Shown: positions 4,163 through 40,520 of the stretch, one piece after another
How positions within the stretch are numbered: the first letter of the stretch is position 1
Layout of the letters: every line of letters begins with the position of its first letter
Source: Psychroflexus curvus
GTDB lineage: Bacteria; Bacteroidota; Bacteroidia; Flavobacteriales; Flavobacteriaceae
NCBI RefSeq assembly: GCF_020164585.1
Contig: NZ_JAIQZF010000011.1
Span: 1-40,520 of the forward strand
DNA length: 40,520 bases
Direction of reading: 5' to 3'
The notes under the pieces: model-generated
Database searches by the model: none
What the model was told of the DNA's origin: nothing
Seen by the model: only the letters and a program-made list of their open reading frames with translations
Made by a program: the position numbers and the translations under genes

Positions 4163-6508
4163 ATGAAACACATTGTAATCGTATTTCTCGTTGTTATCGC
4201 CTGTAGCTCAAGTCTATTCGGTCAGGAATTTCTACAGAAAGGAGATTTAAGCCAGGTGAAAGCGTCTCAGTTTTCAGAGCAGGAATTAAGGCAAATCAAC
4301 CAGGAACTGGAGGCTAATCAAATGTCTTTCCAGGAAGCCCAGCTGGTAGCCGAAGGAAAAGGAATGCCAAAAGCTGAAATCGCTAAGCTAAAGGCGAGGT
4401 TGGAAAGTCTGCCAAAGCAATCGGAGTCCGAGGAGCTTAAGGGCGAAAACGAAAAAGCTTACGAAAAACGTCAGGACTCTTTAAAAACCTATGAAGGCTA
4501 TGAGGAATCAGATGCTTTAACAAAAGACCTGGACAGTTTAGATAAAAAAAACAGGGTCTTTGGTTCAGAATTATTTACCACCAAGAATTTAAGCTTCGAG
4601 CCCAATCAAAATCAAACCACGCCTGCCAATTATATATTGGGCCCTAAAGATCAGCTGGAAATCGTTTTATCCGGAGAGCAGCAGTTCACGTTCTCAGGAC
4701 GGGTTTCTACTAATGGTAAACTGATCATTCCCAACGTGGGGGTGGTATTCGTGAGCGGTCTCCAATTTGAAGCTGCCGTAAGCCGAATTAAACTGGAAAT
4801 GCAAAAAATATTCTCATCGCTTAGAACTGGCGATAGCAGGTTATCTGTGACTGTATCCAATTACAGAAGCATATTTGTGACTATCATAGGGGCTAAGCAG
4901 CCTGGAAATTATAAGGTAAGCTCTATGAGTACGGTATTTAATGCCTTGCATATCGCAGGAGGTCCAAATGCTTTAGGAAGTTACAGAGCTATAGAACTCA
5001 TTAGGGATAATGAAGTGATAAGAACCATAGATTTATACGATTTCCTCACCAAAGGCGACCAAAGCGATAATTTAGCCTTACAGGATAATGACATTATAAG
5101 AATCCCAACCTTTAAGGGGCGCATTGATTTAAAAGGTGAATTCAAAAATCCGGGCATATACGAAATCTTACCCGGGGAGGATCTGGATCAAATTATCAAC
5201 TATGCATCAGGTTTTACAGAAGATGCCTACCTCAACAGAATTTTGGTAAGACAGAAAACCGATAACGAGTTGAGGATAGAAGATTTAAACAGTAAAAACT
5301 ACAAAAACTACCTGCCTTTGGCAGGGGATGAGGTTATCGTAGCCGGAATCCTGAACCGATACGAAAACAGAGTCCAGATTAAGGGGGCGGTTTACAGACC
5401 TGGAGACTATAGCCTGAAAGAAGAGGAGGTTTTAAAGGTGAGTGACCTGATTGAAAAGGCCGATGGCGTAAAGGAAAATGTATTCTTACCTAAAGCTTCG
5501 TTGATTCGTCAAAAAGAGGATTTAACGACAGAGTACATCGATATAGATTTGCAGGCTGTTCTGAGTGGGCAGGAGTCCTCTGATATCCAGCTTCAGAGGG
5601 AAGATATTCTGGTTGTGTTTTATGATGAAACCCTCTTAGAATCCTTTACCAATACCATAGAGGGAGAGGTCAGGGAGCCTGGAATTTATCCTTACTCAGA
5701 AGATAAAACTTTATATGATCTTTTGCTGGAAGCGGGCTACTTTACAGAAAAAGCATCTCAAAAAGTCATTGTGTACAGGCGAATTATCAGCGACGATTAC
5801 ATACCGGCAGATCAGGAAAAGCTGATTAACTTTCAGCTGGAGATAGACCCTCAAAACCCTGAGAGGGCGGCCAGCTTTATGCTGATGCCACAGGACCACG
5901 TCATCGTAAGGAAAATAATTTCCTACGAAGTCCCTTCTATGGTGACTTTAGAAGGAGAGGTGCTTTACCCTGGGCAATATGCCCTGATTAAAGAAAATGA
6001 AAAGCTTACCGATTTTATCAAACGCAGCGGAGGTTTTACCGATCTGGCATTCCTTAAATCGGTTAGAATACTGCGAAATGACAAAATAATCCCTATCGAC
6101 TGGTCTGAAATAGAAAAATCTAAGGGGGCTGCAGATATCTTTACTTTAGAGCCTGGTGATACTGTTCAGGTGCCTAAAAGAAGCCAGACGGTGGTGGTAG
6201 AAGGCAATGTAATGCTGGAAACAGAAGTGATTTACAAGAAAAACAGAAGCCTTAGGTATTATCTCAAAAATGCAGGAGGAGTAGATGACCGAGGGATGAA
6301 ACGCAAGACGTTTATTGTTTATCCCAACGGCTCGGCTGCAAATACCAAGAGTTTTCTGGGCATAAAATCCTATCCTAAGGTTCAGCCAGGCAGTAGAATT
6401 GTAGTGCCGGCCAAGCCGGAACGAGAGGGATTAGATGTGACCCAGATTATAGGGCTTGCGTCTACCTTAGCCTCACTGGCAGCCATCATTTTTGGCATTA
6501 CCCGATAG
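4163..6508 (+). CDS. Polysaccharide export protein, SLBB domain (Wza-like)
   Basis: Outer-membrane-side exporter of the polysaccharide, 781 residues, about twice as long as E. coli Wza. The N-terminus is an export signal; the run VIAC around residue 14 fits a lipobox, so it may be a lipoprotein like Wza, though cleavage later (after SLFG) is also possible. Residues about 35-130 are charged and probably helical. The polysaccharide export (Poly_export) domain begins at YILGPKDQLEI (about 157) and is followed by several SLBB-type beta-grasp repeats, recognisable by recurring 'G.v..PG.y' units at about 245, 330, 400, 500 and 595. The C-terminus is a hydrophobic segment (about 760-780). It is the first gene of the locus and is followed after 49 bases by the Wzz-like partner. 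Confidence 0.93.
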   Translation: MKHIVIVFLVVIACSSSLFGQEFLQKGDLSQVKASQFSEQELRQINQELEANQMSFQEAQLVAEGKGMPKAEIAKLKARLESLPKQSESEELKGENEKAYEKRQDSLKTYEGYEESDALTKDLDSLDKKNRVFGSELFTTKNLSFEPNQNQTTPANYILGPKDQLEIVLSGEQQFTFSGRVSTNGKLIIPNVGVVFVSGLQFEAAVSRIKLEMQKIFSSLRTGDSRLSVTVSNYRSIFVTIIGAKQPGNYKVSSMSTVFNALHIAGGPNALGSYRAIELIRDNEVIRTIDLYDFLTKGDQSDNLALQDNDIIRIPTFKGRIDLKGEFKNPGIYEILPGEDLDQIINYASGFTEDAYLNRILVRQKTDNELRIEDLNSKNYKNYLPLAGDEVIVAGILNRYENRVQIKGAVYRPGDYSLKEEEVLKVSDLIEKADGVKENVFLPKASLIRQKEDLTTEYIDIDLQAVLSGQESSDIQLQREDILVVFYDETLLESFTNTIEGEVREPGIYPYSEDKTLYDLLLEAGYFTEKASQKVIVYRRIISDDYIPADQEKLINFQLEIDPQNPERAASFMLMPQDHVIVRKIISYEVPSMVTLEGEVLYPGQYALIKENEKLTDFIKRSGGFTDLAFLKSVRILRNDKIIPIDWSEIEKSKGAADIFTLEPGDTVQVPKRSQTVVVEGNVMLETEVIYKKNRSLRYYLKNAGGVDDRGMKRKTFIVYPNGSAANTKSFLGIKSYPKVQPGSRIVVPAKPEREGLDVTQIIGLASTLASLAAIIFGITR

Positions 6509-22040: not shown

Positions 22041-22388
22041 ATGCGCAACTTCAAAAACTATGATATCTGGAAACTGAGTCATCAACTGACACTAGATATT
22101 TACTCTGTTACTAAAGATTTTCCAAACTCAGAAAAATATCAGATTATTTCTCAAATGCAAAGAGCAGCATATTCAATTCCTTCCAATATCAGCGAAGGAT
22201 GTGGAAGAAAATCAGACAAAGACTTTAACCGTTTCTTACAAATAGCCCTAGGCTCAGCTCACGAACTGGAATATTTTGTCCTTTTATCAAAAGATTTAAA
22301 CTTCATTAATGAAGAAACTTATACAATATTAGATGAAAAAATAAATAATCTAAAAAAACGAATCTACAGTCTAAGTCAAAAGCTATAA
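22041..22388 (+). CDS. Four-helix-bundle protein (23S rRNA intervening-sequence protein family)
   Basis: A 115-residue member of the S23/IVP family (TIGR02436). It opens with NYDIWKLSHQLTLDIY, has FPNSEKYQIISQMQRAAYSIPSNISEGCGR (about 31-60) and GSAHELEYFVLL (about 76-87), the three signature stretches of the family; all four helices are present. The family also includes Avd-like proteins, but no reverse transcriptase is nearby and the gene is not inside an rRNA. The cellular role is unknown. It interrupts the polysaccharide operon between the oxidoreductase and the heparinase-like gene, and its final codons and stop (aag cta taa) are supplied by the flanking repeat. Confidence 0.9.
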   Translation: MRNFKNYDIWKLSHQLTLDIYSVTKDFPNSEKYQIISQMQRAAYSIPSNISEGCGRKSDKDFNRFLQIALGSAHELEYFVLLSKDLNFINEETYTILDEKINNLKKRIYSLSQKL

Positions 22389-29296: not shown

Positions 29297-29683
29297 ATGA
29301 GTAAAATAAAATCATTTGAGGACTTAAAAGTGTGGCAGGATGCTCGTGAATTGAATAAAAAAATGTTTCAGATTTTGAAGGGTAAAGACGATAAAAATAC
29401 TGGCTTTCTGATCAATCATTTGTTCAAAACAAGCGGTAGCATAATGGATAATATTGCAGAGGGATTTGAGAGAAATGGTAATAAAGAGTTTAAACAATTT
29501 CTTTCAATTTCAAAAGGAAGTGCAGGTGAGCTGAGTTCACAATTATATAGAGCTTTAGATGCAGCAATTATTAATCAAGAAGAATTTAAAGAGCTTACAG
29601 ACATAACAAAATCAATTGGCAATCAACTTGGTTCATTTATGTCGTACTTAAAAACAACAAGTTACAAAGGCGGGAAATTTTAA
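29297..29683 (+). CDS. Four-helix-bundle protein (23S rRNA intervening-sequence protein family), second copy
   Basis: A 128-residue relative of the protein at 22041, in the same S23/IVP family but only distantly similar. It has FEDLKVWQDARELNKKMF (7-24), FKTSGSIMDNIAEGFERNG (about 47-65) and GSAGELSSQLYRAL (about 77-90). Function unknown. It sits alone in repeat sequence and is bracketed by direct copies of a word array that is different from the one around the first copy. Its stop codon touches the downstream array. Confidence 0.88.
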   Translation: MSKIKSFEDLKVWQDARELNKKMFQILKGKDDKNTGFLINHLFKTSGSIMDNIAEGFERNGNKEFKQFLSISKGSAGELSSQLYRALDAAIINQEEFKELTDITKSIGNQLGSFMSYLKTTSYKGGKF

Positions 29684-30158: not shown

Positions 30159-30635
30159 TTCCATCTCAACTCTACTTCGACTGCGCTCATTACAGGCAAT
30201 TCCATATTAAAACAATTGGAATTAAAGTGAAGAGTAAAGAATCTAGATTTTTTCATTATTAATAGGTAAGAATTTAAAACTGGCCTACTTTTTATGGATG
30301 TAAAAAAACAAGAAAGTAGTGAAGTAAGGGTGAAGGAGCAATGCCTTAGTGAAACGGTTGGCATTGCGTGGAGGAACTGCTTTTGTAGTTTTTAAAGACA
30401 TAAAAATAAGCCTAGTCTCCAAGGCTTTGGGGATTGGTTCTCCCGATAGCTATCGGGATTGGGCGATGCAAATCGAGGCACGAGATTCATGAACACTTAA
30501 AATAATAATAACGAGGGTGAACTAAAAAAGAATGGAAGTTTCAATTAAAATTAAAGGCATTAAATTAATATTATCAAAAAATAAAAAGATCCCTCGTCGA
30601 AGCAAAAAAAAACTTCTCTCTCGGGATGACAGTAG
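30159..30635 (+). repeat. 480-bp repeat core with hairpins, copy 1
   Basis: Shared with 35300-35767 and 37770-38243. In order: ccatctc-actctacttcga, an inverted repeat aattcca…tggaatt, ctggcctac, a 33-codon frame, four hairpins, ggtgaactaaaaaagaatg, and a terminal cgtcgaagc…cttctctctcgggatgacag. Copy 1 differs by base changes that lie in loops or give G·T pairs. It lies upstream of ATPase gene 1. No protein-coding gene lies between 30063 and 30936; other content is 'tctaatatct' words and 'gtcttcgtcaatgac' words. Confidence 0.75.
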
Positions 30636-30835
30636 AAATGGTCATTTCGATACGTTTTGATTATCATCAAAACACCTGGCTTTGCCAAGTAAAAAAGTAA
30701 ATTCCTCCCCCGGCCCCTTCCGCCTCAGGCGGAGAGTTTGTTCGATGGCTTGATGTTTTCGTTTGGTCTTTGTCTTCGTCAATGACTTCGTCAAAGTTAA
30801 CGTCTTCGTCACTGCCAACAGCCAACAACAAATTT

Positions 30836-30896
30836 CTTAAATCTGCACAAAAAAAACCCTTAAAACTGCACAATGAAAATGCTTAAATTTGCACAA
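30836..30896 (+). promoter_or_regulatory. Three 23-bp iterons at the promoter of ATPase gene 1
   Basis: The 15-base core CTTAAANNTGCACAA occurs at 30836, 30859 and 30882, exactly 23 bases apart. Only the two N positions vary. The third copy covers the TTTG (-33) promoter element. The motif is seen nowhere else in the window that I could find. Confidence 0.8.
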
Positions 30897-30918
30897 ATTA
30901 ATTTTTAAATTACTTTTG
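30888..30918 (+). promoter_or_regulatory. Promoter of ATPase gene 1
   Basis: TTTG (30888-30891), 19 bases, TACTTTTG (30911-30918): an ideal Bacteroidota promoter. Transcription should start near 30925, so translation most likely starts at the ATG at 30937. Confidence 0.75.
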
Positions 30919-30936
30919 TATAACAAATTAAATGTC

Positions 30937-32190
30937 ATGGGTTATGTAAAAAGATTGGTTGAAGATGACTTAGTATCAAAGATGTCAGCTTCTGGGGCCT
31001 TATTAATTAAAGGACCTAAATCTTGCGGGAAAACTGAAACGGCAACTCAATATGCGAAAAGTATTCTGAAAATGGATCGAGACCCACAAGTTTCGGTCAT
31101 GATGAGAACCAATCCACAGTTATTATTGGAAGGAGAAACTCCAAGATTGATTGATGAATGGCAAGAGCAACCAGAACTATGGAATTATGTGAGGCATGAA
31201 GTCGATCAACGGAAGACTAAAGGCGTATTTATACTTACAGGGTCTGCCAATCCACCTGAAAATGTGAAGCTTCATAGTGGTGCCGGACGCTTTACCGTCT
31301 TGCAAATGGACACGATGACCTGGCAAGAATTAGGATACTCCACAGGAAATGTAAAAGTCTCGGATTTGCTTAGTGGAACTGTAAATGACTATTATGAACC
31401 AGCTATTTCATTGGAATATATTGTTGACAGAATATGCATAGGGGGGTGGCCTACGCTCATTGATTCTGGGCTAAAAGAGGCTTTGAATATGAACCGGGCT
31501 TATATTGATTTGCTTTGCGAGGTGGACATAAGTCAGGTATCAGGCGTGAAGCGTAATCCTCATAAAGTAAGAAGTTTATTGCGCTCTCTCTCCAGAAATA
31601 TCGCAACTTTAGTCGATAATAAGACCTTAGGAAAAGACGTTCAACTAAATGAAAATAACGAATTATCAAGAAATACACTTTCCGATTACTTGAATGCCTT
31701 GTCCAAATTAATGATTCTCTTTGAGCAACCGGCTTTTAACCCTCATATTCGTTCAGCTGCCTCTTTACGTAAATCCCCCAAAAGACATTTATGCGATCCT
31801 TCTTTAGCAGTTGCTGTTTTGGGTTTGGGAAAAGAATCATTGATGAAAGATCTTAACTATACAGGGTTTCTGTTCGAATCATTAGCCATACACGAATTGA
31901 ATGTATATGCAAAAGCAAATGATGCTACAGTATACCACTACAATGATTCTTATGGCTATGAAGTAGATGCTATCGTGCAGAAACGCAATGGAGATTATGC
32001 AGCATTTGAAATCAAACTAGGTGTAGGTTATATTGATGAAGCAGCAGAAAATCTTAAAAAGTTTGAAGCTAATATTGACTCAGGAAAAATGGAAATTCCA
32101 AAATCATTAAATATCATTACGGGAACAGGCATGAGTTACCGACGTCCCGACGGAATCAATGTTATTTCATTAGTTTCACTTGGGAAATAG
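30937..32190 (+). CDS. AAA ATPase with DUF4143 domain (ATPase 1)
   Basis: A 417-residue protein. The ATP-binding part has Walker A GPKSCGKT (26-33) and the acidic Walker B-type segment LIDEWQE (70-76), followed by FILTGSANPP (sensor 1, about 103-112). The middle part is a winged-helix-type region (LSRNTLSDYLNALSKL, about 248-263). The C-terminal DUF4143/PD-(D/E)XK-like part has YGYEVDAIVQKRNGDYAAFE then IKLG (about 349-373), with Asp and E-x-K in the pattern of an intact nuclease site. A longer frame starts at 30889, but that would overlap the promoter. Function is unknown; predicted nucleic-acid-binding ATPase, cytoplasmic. It is monocistronic and carries three iterons at its promoter. Confidence 0.88.
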   Translation: MGYVKRLVEDDLVSKMSASGALLIKGPKSCGKTETATQYAKSILKMDRDPQVSVMMRTNPQLLLEGETPRLIDEWQEQPELWNYVRHEVDQRKTKGVFILTGSANPPENVKLHSGAGRFTVLQMDTMTWQELGYSTGNVKVSDLLSGTVNDYYEPAISLEYIVDRICIGGWPTLIDSGLKEALNMNRAYIDLLCEVDISQVSGVKRNPHKVRSLLRSLSRNIATLVDNKTLGKDVQLNENNELSRNTLSDYLNALSKLMILFEQPAFNPHIRSAASLRKSPKRHLCDPSLAVAVLGLGKESLMKDLNYTGFLFESLAIHELNVYAKANDATVYHYNDSYGYEVDAIVQKRNGDYAAFEIKLGVGYIDEAAENLKKFEANIDSGKMEIPKSLNIITGTGMSYRRPDGINVISLVSLGK

Positions 32191-32721
32191 CTTGATCGAT
32201 CAGTGATTTATAGTTACAATACATAAAATACCCCACCTTGTTATTGTTTGCGTTTCGTGACACCTGATCGGCCAATGCAAACCCAACTCAGCAGAACTAT
32301 CGAGAACCGTCCCAATCCTGATATAGCCAGGAATTGCAATCGAACAGCAAACCTGAGTTGAGTAGTTATTGAGTCTTTGAGTTTTTGAGTGGTGAGTATA
32401 GAATTATGAAAATAAACAATTAGCATATTAAGCAAAACGGTCAACCTATATCAGGGAATGACATTATACTTACTACTTTTTACTTACTATTTTGTACTTT
32501 TAATATTTACTATTTTACTTCTACTATCGTTTTCGTCACTGCCAAGCCATTCCCCCTTTGGGGGCTAGGGGGAAGCCAACAGCCAGTTTCCAACGTCTTC
32601 GTCAAAGTCCATGTCTTTGTCACTTCCCCTAAAACGCCTCGCCGATTATACCACTATGCGATTACACGATTGCACGAAAAATCACTACAAAACCTTTAAG
32701 TAAATCAAAGTATTTAGGCTT
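32191..32721. repeat. Gene-free repeat region between ATPase 1 and ATPase 2
   Basis: No gene. After about 130 bases of unassigned sequence it holds a copy of the 'aacctgagttgag … aattagcatattaagcaaaacggtc' module (32346-32466), 'ttactatttac/tacttctac' words, the palindromic ccattccccctttgggggc unit (about 32554), 'gtcttcgtcaaagtc' words and 'cgattataccactatgcg' words. Confidence 0.7.
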
Positions 32722-32776
32722 ATAACCATAAAAATTAAATAAATAACCATATTTTTACGCCCATAACCTTAAAAAT
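32722..32776 (+). promoter_or_regulatory. Three iterons directly before ATPase gene 2
   Basis: ATAACCATAAAAAT (32722), ATAACCATATTTTT (32743) and ATAACCTTAAAAAT (32763) lie 21 and 20 bases apart; the last ends at the base before the start codon. TATTTTTA at 32750-32757, within the second copy, is a likely -7 element. Confidence 0.7.
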
Positions 32777-33991
32777 ATGATTTCACGTTCAGGATATATA
32801 GAGGCCATTAAGCCATTTATTGGTAGGCCACAGATTAAAATTATTACTGGCATTAGACGTTCAGGCAAATCCACAGTGTTGCAGTTGCTTAAAAATGAAC
32901 TGTTGACAAGGGGAGTGGAACAAGAGCATATCATTTTTATTAATCTGGAGAGTTTTAGATACGCAGACCTATTGGAAGCATCAAAACTGTATCAATTTAT
33001 AAGTAATCAAATTCAACAAGAAAAAAAATACTACTTACTTTTAGATGAAATCCAGAAAGTAAAAGATTGGGAAAAAGCAGTTAATTCCTTTTTAGTTGAT
33101 TTTGATGTAGACATCTATCTTACAGGTTCTAATTCACATTTACTTTCATCAGAATTAGCCACCTATTTGGCAGGGCGGTACGTTGAAATTCCGATTTTTA
33201 CCTTGTCATTCCAGGAATATTTACACTTTAGAAAGCATTATTTTTCGGAGGCTAAAAATACAGGAAATCAATTTTTAGAGTATCTACGGAAAGGGGGGTT
33301 TCCTGTAATTCATACCTTAGATTATTCGGAGGAATCTGCTTACAAGGTCGTTTACGATATTTACTCATCTGTGATTCTTAGAGATACAGTACAACGCTAT
33401 AAGATAAGAGATGTGGAGCTATTAGAGCGGGTGATTAGATATGCTTTCGACAATATTGGTAACACATTTTCGGGTAAAAATATAGCCGATTACTTCAAAA
33501 GTCAGAAACGCAAAATAGATATCAATACGGTTTATAATTATTTAAACGCCTTGGTGGGAGCCTTTATTTTGCATCGTGTTCCGCGTTATGACGTAAAAGG
33601 AAAAGAAATCCTTAAAACCCAAGAAAAGTTTTACGTCAGTGACATTTCTTTGATTTATGCAACTATGGGAAATCGCGACAGAATGATTGCAGGGATACTA
33701 GAAAACATCGTGTTTTTAGAGCTTAAAAGAAGAGGATTCAAGGTTTATATTGGCAAGTTAGACCATAAAGAAATTGATTTTGTAGCCGAAAAAAATAACC
33801 GTAAAATTTACTTACAAGTTGCTTATAAACTGGAGAGTGAAGACACCGTAGAAAGGGAGTTTGGAAACTTATTGGCTATCAAAGACCACTATCCCAAATA
33901 TGTTGTAACTATGGATGACTTCTGGAAAGATACTATTGAAGGAGTTCAGCATTTATACATCACCGATTTTTTGTTATCGAAAGAGCTATAA
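32777..33991 (+). CDS. AAA ATPase with DUF4143 domain (ATPase 2)
   Basis: A 404-residue protein of the AAA_14 plus DUF4143 class. Walker A is GIRRSGKST (25-33), Walker B LLLDEIQ (87-93, Asp90-Glu91), sensor 1 IYLTGSNSHLLS (about 114-125), and a domain-boundary Arg-rich loop LAGRYVEIPIFTLSFQEYL (about 133-151) that is typical of this family. The winged-helix part includes NTVYNYLNALVGAFILHRV (about 252-270). In the C-terminal nuclease-like part, GKLDHKEIDFVAEKN (about 331-345) keeps the Asp, but the E-x-K position is QVA, so it is probably not an active nuclease. It is not closely similar to ATPases 1, 3 or 4. Confidence 0.9.
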   Translation: MISRSGYIEAIKPFIGRPQIKIITGIRRSGKSTVLQLLKNELLTRGVEQEHIIFINLESFRYADLLEASKLYQFISNQIQQEKKYYLLLDEIQKVKDWEKAVNSFLVDFDVDIYLTGSNSHLLSSELATYLAGRYVEIPIFTLSFQEYLHFRKHYFSEAKNTGNQFLEYLRKGGFPVIHTLDYSEESAYKVVYDIYSSVILRDTVQRYKIRDVELLERVIRYAFDNIGNTFSGKNIADYFKSQKRKIDINTVYNYLNALVGAFILHRVPRYDVKGKEILKTQEKFYVSDISLIYATMGNRDRMIAGILENIVFLELKRRGFKVYIGKLDHKEIDFVAEKNNRKIYLQVAYKLESEDTVEREFGNLLAIKDHYPKYVVTMDDFWKDTIEGVQHLYITDFLLSKEL

Positions 33992-34412
33992 TGATAGAAA
34001 ACTGAGATGTGTGTTTTGCCAGTAGACCAGCCCGCCTGACTGACGCTAGTCGGGCAGGTTGAGTAGTCTTTGAGTGGTGAGTGGTGAGTATTGAATTATG
34101 AAAATAACCAATTAGTATATTAACCAAAACGGTCAACGCTATTTAGGGAAGGTCATTATACTTACTACTTTGTACTTCTAATATTTACTATTTAACTTCT
34201 ACTATCATTTTCGTCACTATCAATCCATTCCCCCTTCGGGGCTAGGGGGCGCTTTATGTTCTTTTCTCCATTTTCTAACATCTAGAATCTAGAATCTAAC
34301 ATCTACCAAAAGATCCCCTTCGGGGGCTAGGGGGCTCCCACCAGTCAAAGATCAAGCGTACTAAGATTTTGGAAAAATAAAATATGTAACTTTGTAACTA
34401 AAGTCATATGAA
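33992..34412. repeat. Gene-free repeat region before the toxin-antitoxin pair
   Basis: Holds a REP-like palindrome at 34031-34058, a copy of the 'aattagtatattaaccaaaacggtc' repeat (34081-34157), 'tacttctaatatttac' words, two ccccttcggggctaggggg units (about 34228 and 34315) and 'taacatctagaatct' words. TAACTTTG at 34387-34394 is a good -7 element for the antitoxin gene. Confidence 0.7.
34031..34058. repeat. REP-like imperfect palindrome, copy 3
   Basis: Same sequence and orientation as 336-363, lying 40 bases after the stop of ATPase 2. Confidence 0.7.
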
Positions 34413-34622
34413 ATGGAAACAATTATCATACAAACAGACCCTAAAAAGTCCAAAGCCATAAAGCAGTTTTTAAAAGCCTTTGGCGTAAGGTTTGAAACCG
34501 AAAAATCGCCATACGACCTCACTTTTGTAAAAAAGATTAAAGAACGTACTCAAAGTGTAGAAGCAGGGAATACCCTAACAGTTGATCCAAATAACTTATG
34601 GGAAAGTTTAGGATTAAAGTAG
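34413..34622 (+). CDS. Antitoxin, DUF2683-like
   Basis: A 69-residue protein: IIIQTDPKKSKAIKQFLKAF (4-23), GVRFETEKSPYD, then a short helical tail. This matches the small DUF2683-type antitoxins that precede YoeB-like toxins in Bacteroidota. The first half would bind DNA or support dimerisation, and the tail the toxin. It overlaps the toxin gene by 25 bases, the usual coupling of a toxin-antitoxin pair. A -7 element TAACTTTG lies 19 bases before the start codon. Confidence 0.8.
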   Translation: METIIIQTDPKKSKAIKQFLKAFGVRFETEKSPYDLTFVKKIKERTQSVEAGNTLTVDPNNLWESLGLK

Positions 34623-34873
34623 AAAAAGCAGCACGATTAGATTTTGATAAGGTGTATAAAACCGGTAACAAAGCCAGTATCAAAAAAATTGAACAAATAA
34701 TTACTGAGCTTTCAGAGCACCCTTATACAGGTACAGGCAACCCTGAACAATTAAAATACAACCTAACTGGCTACTGGAGCCGGCGTATCAATAAAAAAGA
34801 CAGAATAGTGTATCAAGTCATTGAAGAACCCGACCGATTGGTGGTTATCGTATCGGCTTTAGGGCATTATTAA
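34598..34873 (+). CDS. Txe/YoeB family ribosome-dependent mRNA interferase toxin
   Basis: A 91-residue RelE-superfamily toxin. Key YoeB features are HPYTGTGNPEQLKYNLTGYW (41-60), SRRINKKDRIVYQV (61-74) and the C-terminal HY (90-91). The catalytic Glu, Arg and His/Tyr of YoeB correspond to Glu50, Arg63 or Arg69, and His90-Tyr91, all present, so the toxin is probably active. It would cut mRNA at the ribosome A site. It is neutralised by the upstream partner. Confidence 0.92.
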   Translation: MGKFRIKVEKAARLDFDKVYKTGNKASIKKIEQIITELSEHPYTGTGNPEQLKYNLTGYWSRRINKKDRIVYQVIEEPDRLVVIVSALGHY

Positions 34874-35105
34874 ATCGGGGTGCTGGGATAAAGTTTCCTA
34901 AACTCAGTTATCCACTTTGTCAGTTCGAGTGATTTTAAGTGAAACGAAAAATTGTATCGAAAACCAGTTCAACACTTTACCAGTAGACCAGTTCACCAGT
35001 ATACCGGTTGGCCAGTTCTGGTTCTTCTGAAATATCGAATACTAAATAATAAATACTGAATCATGAATAATCTAAATTTTTCTTTTCAAATTCAGTTAAC
35101 CAATT
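34874..35105. repeat. Spacer after the toxin gene
   Basis: No gene. It has about 90 bases of unassigned sequence, then 'accagtagaccagttcaccagtataccgg' type words (34978-35015) and 'atcgaatactaaataataaatactgaat' words (35033-35065), the latter also at about 39957. Confidence 0.6.
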
Positions 35106-35985
35106 GTCTTCGTTATCGTTTCTTCAAGCACTAGCCGATTATACCATTACTCGACTACACGATTACACGAATAAGCGTAGCGATTTACCAACACTAAAAT
35201 TTCAATTGGTGGCTGAGCCTGCCTGCGTTGCCGGCAAAGGCAGGTGTCCGCCTCAGGCGGATGTATCGAAGCCCCATTGTGAGGAGCAAAAGATTATTCC
35301 ATCTCGACTCTACTTCGACTGCGCTCAGTACAGGCAATTCGATGTTAAAACAATTGGAATTAAAGTGAAGAGTATAGAATACAGTCTTCAGCATCATTGT
35401 TTACATATTAAAACTGGCCTATTTTTTATGGATGTAAAAAAACAAGAAGGTAGTGAAGTAAGGATGAAGGAGCAATGCCCTAGTGAAACGGTTGGCATTG
35501 CGTGGAGGAACTGCTTTCGTAGTTTTTAAAGACATAAAAATAAGCCTAGTCCCCAAGGCTTTGGGGATTGGTTCTCCCGATAGCTATCGGGATTGGGCGA
35601 TGCAAACCGACGTAGGAGGTTCATGAACACTTAAAACAATAACAAGGGGGGTGAACTAAAAAAGAATGAAAGTTTTAATTAAAATTAAAGTCATTAAATT
35701 AAGATTATCAAATAATAAAAAGATCCCTCGTCGAAGCAAAAAAACTTCTCTCTCGGGATGACAGTAGCTAACGGCCAAAAGCCAACAGCCAGTTTTCAGC
35801 GTCTTCGTCATCGTTTCTTCAAGCGCCCCGCCGATTATACCACTATTCGATTACACGATTACACGAAAAAGCAGCAAACCTGAGTTGAGTAGTTATTGAG
35901 TCTTTGAGAGGTGAGTATAGAATCATGAAAATAAACAATTAGCATATTAAGCAAAACGGTCGACGCTATTTAGGGAAGGTCATTA
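35106..35985 (+). repeat. Long composite repeat (about 880 bp), copy A
   Basis: Nearly identical to 37579-38451. In order: 'gtcttcg…tcttcaagc' words, 'cgattata…cacgaataagcg' words, gcctgcctgcgttgccggc palindrome, gtccgcctcaggcggat, the 480-bp core (35300-35767), 'gccaaaagccaacagcc', more 'cgattacacg' words, 'aacctgagttgagtag' and the aattagcatattaagcaaaacggtc module. A long frame across it is broken in copy B by a TAG, so I do not call a gene. The rest up to 36170 is 'ttactatttaac' words and a ccattccccctttgggggc unit. Confidence 0.8.
35472..35591 (+). ncRNA. Candidate structured RNA with four hairpins (repeat core)
   Basis: Hairpin 1: GCAATGCC (35472-35479) with GGCATTGC (35494-35501). Hairpin 2: AACTGC-TTTC-GTAGTT (35509-35524) followed by Ts. 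Hairpin 3: TCCCCAA-GGCT-TTGGGGA (35550-35567). Hairpin 4: perfect palindrome CCCGATAGCTATCGGG (35576-35591). Copy at 30.3 kb keeps all four: its changes are in the loop of hairpin 1, the loop of hairpin 2, and a C-to-T in hairpin 3 that leaves a G·T pair. Equivalent copy near 37.95-38.07 kb. A promoter-like TATTTTTT lies upstream. RNA function is inferred only. Confidence 0.35.
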
Positions 35986-36176
35986 TACTTACTACTTTTT
36001 ACTTCTAATATTTACTATTTAACTTCTGCTATCGTTTTCGTCACTGCCAAGCCATTCCCCCTTTGGGGGCTAGGGGGAAGCCAAAAGCCAACGGCTTAAA
36101 GCCCGTTTTCAACGTCATAAAAATCACCTTACCAACTCATAACACATCGCTATCTAAAGATTTATAAACTAAAAAC

Positions 36177-36230
36177 GCACTACAATAGTGCAAAAAATAT
36201 AAAAAAACGCATTATATAAGTGCGTTTTTT
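36177..36230. promoter_or_regulatory. Two palindromes at the promoter of ATPase gene 3
   Basis: GCACTA-CAA-TAGTGC (36177-36191) and AAAAAACGCA (36202-36211) pairing with TGCGTTTTTT (36221-36230). The two share the frame AACGCA-TA…AGTGC, 32 bases apart. The second lies just before TATTTTTA (36232-36239), a likely -7 element, so an operator is more likely than a terminator, although hairpin plus T run would also fit the latter. Confidence 0.6.
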
Positions 36231-36254
36231 GTATTTTTACTGAAAATCAGTCCT

Positions 36255-37424
36255 ATGGAAAGCCTTTTTGAATATGCCAATAAGCTTATAAAAGAAACCG
36301 ATCTTGGGTTTATGAGGTATATGCATACTCAAATCAACTGGGATAATCGGTTGATAGGCTTGCTGGGCGCAAGAGGTGTAGGCAAGACGACACTGGTGCT
36401 TCAACACATTAAAAAAAATCTTCCCCAACAGCAAACCCTGTATGTGACTGCGGAGGATTTTTATTTTTCGAGTCACAGTCTTGTCGATTTAGCAAGTGAA
36501 TTTGTGAAGTATGGCGGTAAGCATCTCATTATAGATGAAATACATAAATACCCGGACTGGTCCAAAGCACTGAAACTCATTTACGATTACCACAAAGATT
36601 TGCAGATTGTGTTTACGGGGTCTTCGGTTCTGGATATCAAAAAAGGAAGTGCCGATTTAAGCAGAAGAGCGGTCATGTACCATATGAAAGGCTTGTCTTT
36701 TAGAGAATACTTGAGTCTTTTTCATCACATTGACCTTCCGACATACACTCTGGATGAGGTGCTTAGCCATAAAGTGGAGGCTCCACAATTACCGCATCCC
36801 TTAGCCTTATTTTCAAAGTATTTAGAGCAAGGCTATTATCCTTTTTCCCTGGAAGCTGATTTTGACATACGACTAAAACAAATCATCAACCAAAGTCTGG
36901 AAGTGGATATTCCTGTGTATGCAGGGATGAATGTAGCTACAGGCAGAAAGTTAAAACAATTACTTGCTATCATTTCGCGTAGTGTCCCTTTTAAACCCAA
37001 TAGGACCAAAATCGCAGAATTCCTGGGGGCCAGTCGGAATAATATATCAGATTATCTGCTTTATATAGAAGAGGCAGGAATGATAGGGCAATTAAGACCC
37101 TCCACTGGTGGAATCAGGGGTTTGGGGAAAGTTGATAAAATTTACTTAGACAATACCAACCTTATTTATAGTTTAACTGAAGGCGAACTAAATACAGGTA
37201 ATTTGAGAGAAACCTTTTTTTTCAATCAGTTAAACCAAAGTCATATTGTAACCTCATCCAAAGACGTTGATTTCAAAATTGGTCATCTACATTTTGAAGT
37301 TGGAGGTAAAAGCAAAGGCAAAAAGCAGCTGAAGGGACTTGATCATGCCTTTTTGGTGAAAGATAATATTGAAACTGGATACCTCAACACTATTCCTCTC
37401 TGGCAGTTTGGTTTGTTGTATTAA
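36255..37424 (+). CDS. AAA ATPase with DUF4143-type C-terminus (ATPase 3)
   Basis: A 389-residue protein. Walker A is GARGVGKTT (38-46), Walker B LIIDEIHKYP (91-100, Asp94-Glu95), sensor 1 IVFTGSSVLD (about 118-127), then ADLSRRAVMYHMKGLSFREY (about 132-151). The central winged-helix part has FLGASRNNISDYLLYIEEAG (about 256-275). The C-terminal part ends VDFKIGHLHFEVGGKSKGKK (about 337-356), the D…E-x-G-G-K pattern of a nuclease-like fold seen in this subgroup. It is a clear paralogue of ATPase 4: the two Walker A motifs align without a gap. The gene lies between two direct 875-bp repeats. Confidence 0.9.
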   Translation: MESLFEYANKLIKETDLGFMRYMHTQINWDNRLIGLLGARGVGKTTLVLQHIKKNLPQQQTLYVTAEDFYFSSHSLVDLASEFVKYGGKHLIIDEIHKYPDWSKALKLIYDYHKDLQIVFTGSSVLDIKKGSADLSRRAVMYHMKGLSFREYLSLFHHIDLPTYTLDEVLSHKVEAPQLPHPLALFSKYLEQGYYPFSLEADFDIRLKQIINQSLEVDIPVYAGMNVATGRKLKQLLAIISRSVPFKPNRTKIAEFLGASRNNISDYLLYIEEAGMIGQLRPSTGGIRGLGKVDKIYLDNTNLIYSLTEGELNTGNLRETFFFNQLNQSHIVTSSKDVDFKIGHLHFEVGGKSKGKKQLKGLDHAFLVKDNIETGYLNTIPLWQFGLLY

Positions 37425-37484
37425 AGAGTGAACAGTGAGGAGTGAATCAGTGAACTGCTGAACATTGGTAGACCTGTTGACCAG

Positions 37485-37548
37485 CCCGCCTGACTGACGC
37501 TAGTCGGGCAGGTTGACCGGCCCGCCTGAATGACACTAGTCGGGCAGG
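37485..37548. repeat. Two REP-like palindromes in tandem (copies 4 and 5)
   Basis: 37485-37512 is identical to the element at 336-363; 37521-37548 is a variant with CCTGAA…TAGTCGG at the tip. They are 8 bases apart and lie 61 bases after the ATPase 3 stop codon. Confidence 0.7.
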
Positions 37549-37578
37549 TTGACTAGTTAACCAGAAGTCTTAGTCAAG

Positions 37579-38451
37579 GTCTTCGTCATCGTTTCTTCAA
37601 GCGCCCCGCCGATTATACCACTATTCGATTATACGATTACACGAATAAGCGTAGCGATTTACCAACACTAAAATTTCAATTGGTGGCTGAGCCTGCCTGC
37701 GTTGCCGGCAAAGGCAGGTGTCCGCCTCAGGCGGATGTATCGAAGCTCCGTTGTTAGGAGCAAAAGATTATTCCATCTCGACTCTACTTCGACTGCGCTC
37801 AGTATAGGCAATTCCATATTAAAACAATTGGAATTAAAGTGAAGAGTATAGAATACAGTCTTCAGCATCATTGTTTACATATTAAAACTGGCCTATTTTT
37901 TATGGATGTAAAAAAACAAGAAGGTAGTGAAGTAAGGATGAAGGAGCAATGCCCTAGTGAAACGGTTGGCATTGCGTGGAGGAACTGCTTTCGTAGTTTT
38001 TAAAGACATAAAAATAAGCCTAGTCCCCAAGGCTTTGGGGATTGGTTCTCCCGATAGCTATCGGGATTGGGCGATGCAAATCGAGGCACGAGATTCATGA
38101 ACACTTAAAACAATAATAACGAGGGTGAACTAAAAAAGAATGAAAGTTTTAATTAAAATTAAAGTCATTAAATTAAGATTATCAAATAATAAAAAGATCC
38201 CTCGTCGAAGCAAAAAAAACTTCTCTCTCGGGATGACAGTAGCTAACGGCCAAAAGCCAACAGCCAGTTTTCAGCGTCTTCGTCATCGTTACATAAAGCG
38301 CCTGCCGATTACACCCTTACACGAAAGAGCGCAGCAAACTTGAGTTGAGTAGTATGTGAGTCTTTGAGTGGTGAGAGTTGAGTATAGAATTATGAAAATA
38401 AACAATTAGCATATTAAGCAAAACGGTCGACGCTATTTAGGGAAGGTCATT
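37579..38451 (+). repeat. Long composite repeat (about 875 bp), copy B
   Basis: Same order and near-identical sequence to 35106-35985, in the same orientation. Differences include a TAG in place of a TGT GAG stretch near 37755 and changed 'cgattacacccttacacg' words near 38310. The 480-bp core is at about 37770-38243. The remaining bases to 38660 are 'tctaatatct' words, a gcctttgccaaggaacgcaggc palindrome region and 'gtcttcgtc' words; no gene. Confidence 0.8.
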
Positions 38452-38671
38452 GTTCTATGTTCTTTTCTCCTTTTTCTAATATCTAACGTCTGATATCTAA
38501 TATCTACGAAAAAAAAGATTCCCTGCCTTTGCCAAGGAACGCAGGCAGGCTCACCACTCACCACTTGTCTTCGTCTTCGTCAATGTCTTTGTCTCTGCCA
38601 ATCCACCTAAGGCGGACTAGGAGGACACTTCACCACTTGTCTTCGTCAAAGTCATAGCCAAAAAACAATAG

Positions 38672-38706
38672 TGCACATCATGATATGCAAAATATAGTTA
38701 TATTTG
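38672..38706 (+). promoter_or_regulatory. Promoter region of ATPase gene 4
   Basis: TATATTTG at 38699-38706 fits the -7 element; the -33 element is poor. A near-perfect 16-base palindrome GCACATCATGATATGC (38673-38688, one mismatch pair) lies just upstream, and TGCA occurs at 38672, 38686 and 38719. A palindrome here parallels the arrangement at ATPase 3. Confidence 0.5.
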
Positions 38707-38724
38707 TATAATACAATATGCATT

Positions 38725-39921
38725 ATGGAGGATTTATTTAGAAGATACCGAAAAAAAATACAACAGGTCAGCACGGATTTTGTTAGAAGTTTTATTCATG
38801 ATGTCAATTGGAACGCTAGATTAATTGGAATTAAAGGTGCAAGAGGCGTAGGAAAAACAACTTTGCTATTACAATATATAAAGTTGAATTGCAGTGAAAA
38901 TCTAGAAACTGCATTGTATGTAAGTTTAGACTCCTTCGGTTTTAAAGATAAAACATTAGTTGACTTAGCAGATGAATTCGTTCGACATGGAGGAAAGTAT
39001 TTGTTTCTGGATGAAGTGCATAAATATCCTAATTGGGCTCAAGAGTTAAAAAATATTTATGACGATCACCTTGAGCTAAAAGTAGTTTTTACAGGTTCAT
39101 CTCTGTTGGAAATATTAAACTCTCGAGCCGATTTGAGTCGTAGAGCTATTATTTACCACATGCAAGGATTATCATTTAGAGAATATCTTGAGCTTGAAAC
39201 AGGAAAAAAAATCGAGCAATATCCCTTGGAAGCTATTTTAAAAGATCATGTAAAAATCGCAGGTTTAATAAATGATAAAATAAAGCCATTTCGTTATTTT
39301 AATAGCTATTTAAAACAAGGTTACTACCCATTTTACAAAGAGGAGCCTGATTTATATGAACAGCGTATAGAAGAAGTCATCAACATGATGCTCGAGGTAG
39401 AACTACCTTTATTGCGCGGTATTGATGTTGGTTTAGTCCCGAAAATAAAACAACTATTAACAATCATTTCAGAGTCTGTCCCTTTTGTGCCTAATATAGC
39501 GGCTTTGAGTCAAAAAATGGATATGCATAGAACTACCTTGTTATCCTATTTACATTATTTGCAAGAAGTAGGCTTAACTATTCATTTGCAAAAAGAGGCT
39601 CACGGGAATACAAAGTTGCAGAAACCAGCTAAGGTTTATTTAGAAAACACTAATTTAATGTTTGTACTTTCTTCTCTAAACATAAATACAGGCAATGTTA
39701 GAGAAACTTTTTTTGCTAATCAATTAAGCCAAAAAAATAAGTTGAGCTATCATGAAAAAACAGATTTTTTAATCAACAATACCTATGCTTTTGAAATTGG
39801 AGGTAAAGACAAGTCTAAAAAGCAAATTAAAGGTTTAAAAAATGCTTTTGTAGTTGCAGATAATATAGAATATGGTTACCAAAATAAAATACCATTATGG
39901 CTTTTTGGGTTTTTATATTAG
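38725..39921 (+). CDS. AAA ATPase with DUF4143-type C-terminus (ATPase 4)
   Basis: A 398-residue paralogue of ATPase 3. Walker A is GARGVGKTT (38-46), Walker B FLDEVHKYP, sensor 1 VVFTGSSLLE, then ADLSRRAIIYHMQGLSFREY as in ATPase 3. The winged-helix part has MDMHRTTLLSYLHYLQEVGL. The end has TDFLINNTYAFEIGGKDKSK, the same D…E-x-G-G-K pattern. I chose the ATG at 38725 because a longer frame from a TTG at 38704 would begin inside the -7 promoter element; the chosen start also aligns with ATPase 3. Codon use is more AT-rich than in ATPase 3. Function unknown. Confidence 0.9.
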   Translation: MEDLFRRYRKKIQQVSTDFVRSFIHDVNWNARLIGIKGARGVGKTTLLLQYIKLNCSENLETALYVSLDSFGFKDKTLVDLADEFVRHGGKYLFLDEVHKYPNWAQELKNIYDDHLELKVVFTGSSLLEILNSRADLSRRAIIYHMQGLSFREYLELETGKKIEQYPLEAILKDHVKIAGLINDKIKPFRYFNSYLKQGYYPFYKEEPDLYEQRIEEVINMMLEVELPLLRGIDVGLVPKIKQLLTIISESVPFVPNIAALSQKMDMHRTTLLSYLHYLQEVGLTIHLQKEAHGNTKLQKPAKVYLENTNLMFVLSSLNINTGNVRETFFANQLSQKNKLSYHEKTDFLINNTYAFEIGGKDKSKKQIKGLKNAFVVADNIEYGYQNKIPLWLFGFLY

Positions 39922-40520
39922 CCACCAGTCGACTAGCTGCCCAGTTCTCACTGGAATTTCGAATACTGAATAATAAATACTGAATACCGAATTATGAACA
40001 ATTTAAATTTGTTAGTTCACATTTTTCTTTTCAAATTCAGTTAACCAGAAGCCAAAGTCTTAGTCTTCGTCATCGTTACATAAAGCGCCTGCCGATTATT
40101 CGAATATTCGATTACACGATTACACGAAAAAGCAGCAAACCTGAGTTGAGTTGTTATTGAGTCTTTGAGTTTTTGAGTGGTGGGTATAAAATTATGAAAA
40201 TAATCAATTAGTATATTAACCAAAACGGTGAACCTTATTTAGGGAAGGTCAGTATACCAGTTAACTAGTAGTTTTAGTCAACGTCAAAGTCTTCGTCACC
40301 GTTACATAAAACACCCCGCCGATTATACGATAGAGCGCATCGATTTATTTATACTTACGTTTCCCCATCTCACCAGGAAAACACCCTTTGCCTTCGGCAT
40401 TTCCCTCGTATGTTTGATTTCATATAAATATAGATTTATAAATTTAAAGAATCAATTATAAAGGGTCTCAATAAGAGTATGGTTCTTCCCTTGATAACAA
40501 TTACGTATATCGCCCTTGAG
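39922..40520. repeat. Gene-free repeat region at the window end
   Basis: No gene seen. 'atttcgaatactgaataataaatactgaat' words (39956-39999), 'gtcttagtcttcgtc' words, 'cgattattcgaatattcgattacacg' words, a copy of the 'aacctgagttgag…aattagtatattaaccaaaacggt' module (40132-40250), and then about 200 bases of unassigned sequence that may lead to a gene outside the window. Confidence 0.65.

Follow-up and report, generated by a model that had tools for sequence, protein, structure and literature searches.

Three exact repeats lie across the promoter of an ATPase gene in Psychroflexus curvus, raising the question of which protein reads them and whether that protein is the product of the gene itself. 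The window (the whole 40,520-nucleotide stretch analysed here, from contig NZ_JAIQZF010000011.1 of assembly GCF_020164585.1) contains the iteron core CTTAAANNTGCACAA as three zero-mismatch matches, found by pattern search at 30836, 30859 and 30882 and thus at a step of exactly 23 bases. TRF delimited an array of period 23 at 30836-30897, and the self-repeat score of the upstream region was reached by none of 200 dinucleotide shuffles. These three are the only exact iteron copies in the whole 3.0-Mb genome, where the three-iteron array has no second copy and a reversed control pattern has no match; with two mismatches allowed, the count (4 versus 2.5 expected) is not above chance, and the iteron signal therefore consists of exactness and spacing. 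The last iteron holds the TTTG of a TTTG-N19-TAnnTTTG pair, which agrees with the Bacteroidota -33/-7 promoter consensus (Table 1), so that the repeats overlap the promoter of the very gene that encodes the candidate regulator. The original prediction had described three exact iterons at 23-bp spacing, the third covering the -33 element, and it was right on both counts; the last copy sits on this element in homologues too.

Table 1. Positions of the iterons, the putative promoter and ATPase gene 1 within the window.
Feature	Position	Strand	Basis
Iteron 1, CTTAAATCTGCACAA	30836..30850	+	Pattern search, TRF
Iteron 2, CTTAAAACTGCACAA	30859..30873	+	23 bases past iteron 1; pattern search, TRF
Iteron 3, CTTAAATTTGCACAA	30882..30896	+	23 bases past iteron 2; holds promoter TTTG
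Putative -33 element, TTTG	30888..30891	+	Within iteron 3; Bacteroidota promoter consensus
Putative -7 element, TACTTTTG (TAnnTTTG)	30911..30918	+	Bacteroidota promoter consensus; same offset in homologues
ATPase gene 1, AAA_14 + DUF4143, 417 aa, PADLOC PDC-S01	30937..32190	+	Pfam, PADLOC, homologue alignment; stop TAG 32188-32190
AAA_14 ATPase domain, residues 21-132	30997..31332	+	Pfam; invariant motif residues
Predicted winged helix, residues 208-285	31558..31791	+	AlphaFold2 model
PD-(D/E)XK-like nuclease motif, E342-x-D344 ... E358-x-K360	31960..32016	+	Invariant residues; strands placed by model

ATPase gene 1 was taken to start at its ATG, which aligns with the starts of homologues, the TTG at 30889 in the ORF list being an in-frame extension. 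Its product scores above the Pfam cut-offs for both AAA_14 (41.5 bits) and DUF4143 (119.6 bits) and matches seven PADLOC models of PDC-S01 (best PDLC04790, E 3.7e-60). Passages of PMC12988326 describe PDC-S01 as an ATPase fused to PD-(D/E)XK (29,494 cases in bacteria and 9,986 in archaea), rank it as the fourth most common defence across prokaryotes and state that validation is pending for most PDCs; these passages mention neither an operator nor repeats. Judging from them and from PMC13356809, PDC-S01 ranks with the commonest defence candidates that still await validation. A literature search outside subscription papers and preprints returned nothing on PDC-S01 control, on repeats accompanying these ATPases or on phage operator decoys of defence genes.

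Both the Walker residues (G31, K32, T33, D73 and E74) and the four nuclease residues (E342, D344, E358 and K360) are invariant in all 24 aligned clade members. The protein had no match at E<=1 among PDB sequences. AlphaFold2 modelled it with a mean pLDDT of 89 and a pTM of 0.90 from an alignment of 21 rows that included virus-borne relatives and the window's paralogues (17 close rows alone gave a pLDDT of only 31). The model places an AAA+ core, a helical linker, a winged helix (modelled recognition helix at residues 245-257, followed by a low-confidence basic loop at 266-281) and a nuclease fold in succession, in line with the winged-helix part and intact-looking nuclease motif expected at the outset. 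Foldseek matched the model best to SSO1545 (E 9.5e-7) and further to Orc1/Cdc6 on origin DNA (2qby, 2v1u), the STAND protein CED-4 and the Can2/Card1 nucleases, all with TM-scores <=0.45 (2qby_A, for instance, at E 1.4e-5 but TM 0.31/0.33). The Orc1/Cdc6- and STAND-like AAA+ fold, combined with the winged helix, makes it reasonable to regard the modelled product as a DNA-binding, self-regulating ATPase. The family is a candidate, and probable, solitary anti-phage ATPase-nuclease.

Scanning 85,000 genomes with six peptides yielded a close set of 21 loci whose proteins are 72-86% identical and whose record titles name Cyclobacteriaceae, Chitinophagaceae, Saprospiraceae, Flavobacteriales, Bacteroidales, Prevotellaceae and one Chloroherpeton bin; as most of these genomes are metagenome bins, the host labels may err. 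Upstream DNA can be read for 19 of these close homologues, and in all 19 the same iteron recurs at 23 bp in two to five copies; the two others are unreadable there (in L012 the contig stops once a single copy has been passed, and L022 consists of N). The consensus from 65 copies is CTtAAATTTGCACAAtaAAA plus three loose bases. From the last core to the ATG there are 40-46 bases in 20 of 21 loci of the type and 22 in L029 (L029 and L028 are shortened by contig ends), and an exact TAnnTTTG stands at the same offset in 15 of 21, with one mismatch in a further locus, being absent from that offset in L011, L012, L013, L019 and L029. A search for the two-iteron pattern alone in 149 genomes of the class recovered just two, the source genome and G664, in which the array directly precedes a 72% homologue. 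The gene itself (E<=1e-30) is absent from all 148 other genomes sampled from the source genome's family, indicating that it spreads horizontally. Operator and gene thus move together as a unit.

We then scored self-repeats in the 200 bp upstream of more distant relatives, at each period from 14 to 40 with a p value from shuffles. The 43 scored members were drawn from the window gene, the close set, thirteen relatives (37-58% identity) that a search of 395 genomes of the phylum had yielded, and ten relatives borne by plasmids or phages (27-44% identity; picked among the best matches of 275 matching records) from Collinsella, Bacteroides, Prosthecochloris, Lentilactobacillus, Actinomyces and gut phage contigs; the phylum relatives and the plasmid and phage relatives have repeats of other sequence. 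The best period was 23 in 41 of the 43, in 40 of them at p<=0.005, the weak case being L237 (p 0.055 with the period free, 0.005 at period 23). L019 and L023 have a stronger nearby repeat of another period, yet are significant at 23 (0/1000). Period 23 was also found in 8/8 virus-borne relatives from 2.9 million viral contigs (p<=0.005; L317 and L321 resemble each other) and in eight of nine full-length second copies (38-59% identity) in 21 host genomes, a count that omits L308 and L309, which are fragments, and L329, a relative of 28-31% identity. In total, 59 of 60 scored clade members have the 23-bp repeat, one of them weakly; the more distant ones (27-60% identity; several phyla, plasmids and phages) combine this pitch with other repeat sequences. 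A homologue lacking iterons, which the original prediction had counted against itself, was met once: no array could be detected for L302, which comes from a bin labelled Porphyromonas and is 58% identical (p 0.11 at 23).

Within AAA_14-DUF4143 ATPases the 23-bp array marks this one clade, whereas another DUF4143 subfamily is without it: none of the 30 top-scoring PF13635 members of that subfamily had a best period of 23 (lowest p 0.075). By eye, many of them have an inverted repeat adjoining the start codon, for example ATACAATTTGC-N11-GCAATTTGTAT among L045-L072. In a 79-row tree the 23-bp group forms one branch with support 100/100, although the program flags long branches. The operator sequence has diversified between subfamilies while its pitch has stayed unchanged. 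The iterons had also been expected to change together with winged-helix residues. We looked for this covariation and did not see it: of nine recognition-helix positions conserved within iteron type, none is type-specific (in a small and related sample), and the type-specific positions (4 of 34 in the winged helix, 11 of 69 in the nuclease) are spread over the protein without winged-helix enrichment.

The same array occurs in viral contigs apart from the ATPase. The two-iteron pattern at spacing 23 was found in 71 viral stretches, compared to three when one spacer base was added (spacing 24). Three groups, of 49, 14 and 3 stretches, and five singletons make up the 71, representing seven unrelated contexts and one chance match (L124, so judged by context and score). 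None of the 71 stretches encodes the ATPase, nor do the 24 whole viral records searched among them encode a DUF4143 protein. In 10/10 representatives the bacterial iteron profile is also matched by bases that the search pattern did not specify (local p 0 to 0.022), which is not so in L124 (p 0.67); one of the three spacing-24 control matches, the low-complexity L146, fits as well. Stop-free frames of at least 100 codons cover 3/3 spacing-24 stretches versus 7/71 spacing-23 stretches, and the phage arrays are placed at the starts of phage genes. Two of the other operator types, TGCCTGTTG and AAACTGCCG, gave 8 and 4 viral stretches at 23 bp, eight of these twelve in stop-free frames of at least 100 codons (L238/L244 and L247/L249 lie outside such frames), and five ATPase queries found no relative in the twelve; the inverted repeat of the other DUF4143 subfamily gave no viral stretch. 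Convincing phage arrays are thus seen for only one of the four operator types tried, that of gene 1. In the INPHARED collection, L095 has no DNA match and its upstream neighbour no protein match, while the methylase of L139 matches 709 unrelated records.

In the largest phage group the array has a hairpin resembling a terminator on one side and, on the other, the start codon of a glycosyltransferase gene. Searching with the glycosyltransferase protein, that is, independently of the array, we kept 80 of 108 relatives: the array is present in 39/39 at 96-100% identity and in 0/41 of a sister lineage at 71-72% identity (of which L206 offers just 29 upstream bases). Variation across the 39 contigs touches only four of the 36 array columns, all of them in spacers, and leaves the other 32 invariant; in the neighbouring phage gene 82 of 106 fourfold-degenerate sites vary, versus 0 of 32 core columns (Fisher p 2e-16). 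As all 39 have the array, the sister lineage lacks it and it does not vary, it was acquired or retained by a single lineage, in which it is under selection. As the conserved region includes the start region of the phage gene itself, conservation alone cannot name the binder.

We consider it rather probable that the iterons serve the ATPase gene as its operator and are bound by the ATPase itself, which would repress its own synthesis, and that the phage copies act as decoys or borrowed operators. Each repeat would take one winged helix, presented on the same face of the DNA every 23 bp (just over two turns), and AAA+ protomers would assemble side by side across the -33 element and so shut off their own promoter. 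A phage array may then draw the ATPase away or place the phage gene under its control; a decoy, a titration trigger and a borrowed operator would all fit the phage arrays, and the gain of the array in one phage lineage together with its preservation argues that it serves the phage. The idea of self-regulation put forward at the outset gains from the finding that the repeats belong to gene 1 and follow a family-wide pattern, and loses from the missing winged-helix covariation. A partial precedent is RptR: according to passages of PMC12255303, this repressor binds a set of three direct repeats within its own promoter, ahead of a defence island. The window locus likewise has three direct repeats in the promoter of the suspected repressor's own gene, but RptR is a small dimeric protein dedicated to repression, and its sites are 9-bp repeats with a 6-bp palindrome, whereas in the window the ATPase-nuclease itself is suspected of being the repressor and the repeats follow each other at 23 bp. 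More tentatively, the clade may carry a private, portable DNA address in a subfamily-specific code that phages counterfeit as a decoy or hijacked operator, in what would be counter-defence by operator mimicry. Since the array provides a readable DNA target for each clade member, binding, repression and titration are directly testable, and the phage copies point to natural opponents of the ATPase. If the decoy reading is true, it adds a DNA-only kind of counter-defence, made of sites alone.

The phage arrays could instead belong to the phages and be bound by a phage-coded protein, their match to the ATPase operator reflecting shared descent or convergence without interaction. The arrays do stand at phage gene starts, and the phage genomes are fragmentary, so that a binder could be encoded elsewhere. 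We nevertheless regard this as unlikely, since the arrays occur in seven unrelated contexts whose ORFs, within the stretches compared, share only a terminase-like protein (two contexts) and weak matches between c2 and c5, the sister phage lineage lives without the array, and both the 23-bp spacing and the non-pattern bases agree with the bacterial operator.

On the bacterial side, arrays are also found apart from the gene. In five places across the 21 host genomes a 23-spaced pair stands away from any intact gene of the type: G562 has gene-less arrays on two contigs, G563 has two on one contig, one of them followed by a truncated gene start, and G566 has three copies ahead of a DUF4143 gene of a different kind; the sixth pair, that of G574, has the look of a chance match. 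The gene-less arrays L310, L311 and L312 have an upstream flank in common with L011, and by eye genes nearby resemble parts of AbiE toxin-antitoxin systems. In L313 (about 4500-5775) the gene behind a type-1 array is a DUF4143 gene of another kind, and two type-1 copies stand just ahead of the different array that L328 has of its own. Arrays stack, as though genes were swapped behind old operators. Such arrays, found apart from the gene in three host genomes, would suit the view that another regulator, belonging to the host or to the same mobile neighbourhood, binds the array and controls the ATPase gene; so would recognition-helix residues that do not follow iteron type, and at some loci a small linked regulator is still conceivable. 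We give this explanation a small chance, because the array type tracks the ATPase across orders and phyla amid different neighbours, no further genomic copies mark a host regulon, and a constant 23-bp pitch with a changing sequence is most simply put down to the ATPase itself.

Iteron plasmids, too, have tandem repeats of some two helical turns next to the gene for a presumed binder, but their Rep proteins are not known to be an AAA+-nuclease family; the array studied here differs further in lying on a chromosomal contig and on a promoter. By this analogy the array would be a replication or mobilisation element and the ATPase an initiator, or a single-gene mobile element whose origin or end the iterons form, as the Orc1/Cdc6-like fold matches, the iterons adjoining the gene, the horizontal spread, the plasmid- and phage-borne members and the solo arrays would allow. 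It is improbable nonetheless: the last repeat keeps a fixed offset to the promoter-like element and the start codon, as an operator would, and in the 21 host genomes the listed 23-spaced pairs include none downstream of the gene. The proposed kinship with iteron-binding initiators is not supported beyond the repeats and a distant likeness of the predicted AAA+ and winged-helix fold (TM <=0.45). Orc1/Cdc6 proteins resemble the predicted gene 1 product in combining AAA+ and winged-helix domains on DNA repeats (2qby, 2v1u), but the fold similarity is low (TM about 0.3), and no origin function is indicated here; Orc1/Cdc6 initiators are not known to have a C-terminal nuclease. An Orc1 relative, Orc1-2, works as a transcription regulator according to the abstract of PMC9738581. 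A relic reading, in which an ATPase gene was inserted and then lost and left only its array in the phages, is very improbable, and is rejected for the large phage lineage, since relics such as L312, which keeps its array ahead of a truncated gene start, do exist in bacteria but decay would be expected of them, and the core columns in that lineage are invariant against a background of varying fourfold sites.

Gene 1 had been described as standing alone, which is true of the gene itself; three further AAA_14-DUF4143 ATPase genes follow on the same strand (32777-33991, 36255-37424 and 38722-39921), and self-repeat scoring found no 23-bp repeat upstream of these genes 2-4. Gene 3 has, by eye, dyads of AACGCACT/AGTGCGTT just upstream. 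Long intergenic modules also appear by eye to recur between the ATPase genes, one near 30400, 35540 and 38010 and another near 32360, 35880, 38350 and 40150, and a YoeB-like toxin gene lies at 34598, so that the region of about 30400-40500 looks like a cassette-like island. Elsewhere in the window, two small genes of similar look are found at 22041-22388 and 29297-29683, the latter of which matches the 23S rRNA intervening-sequence protein family.
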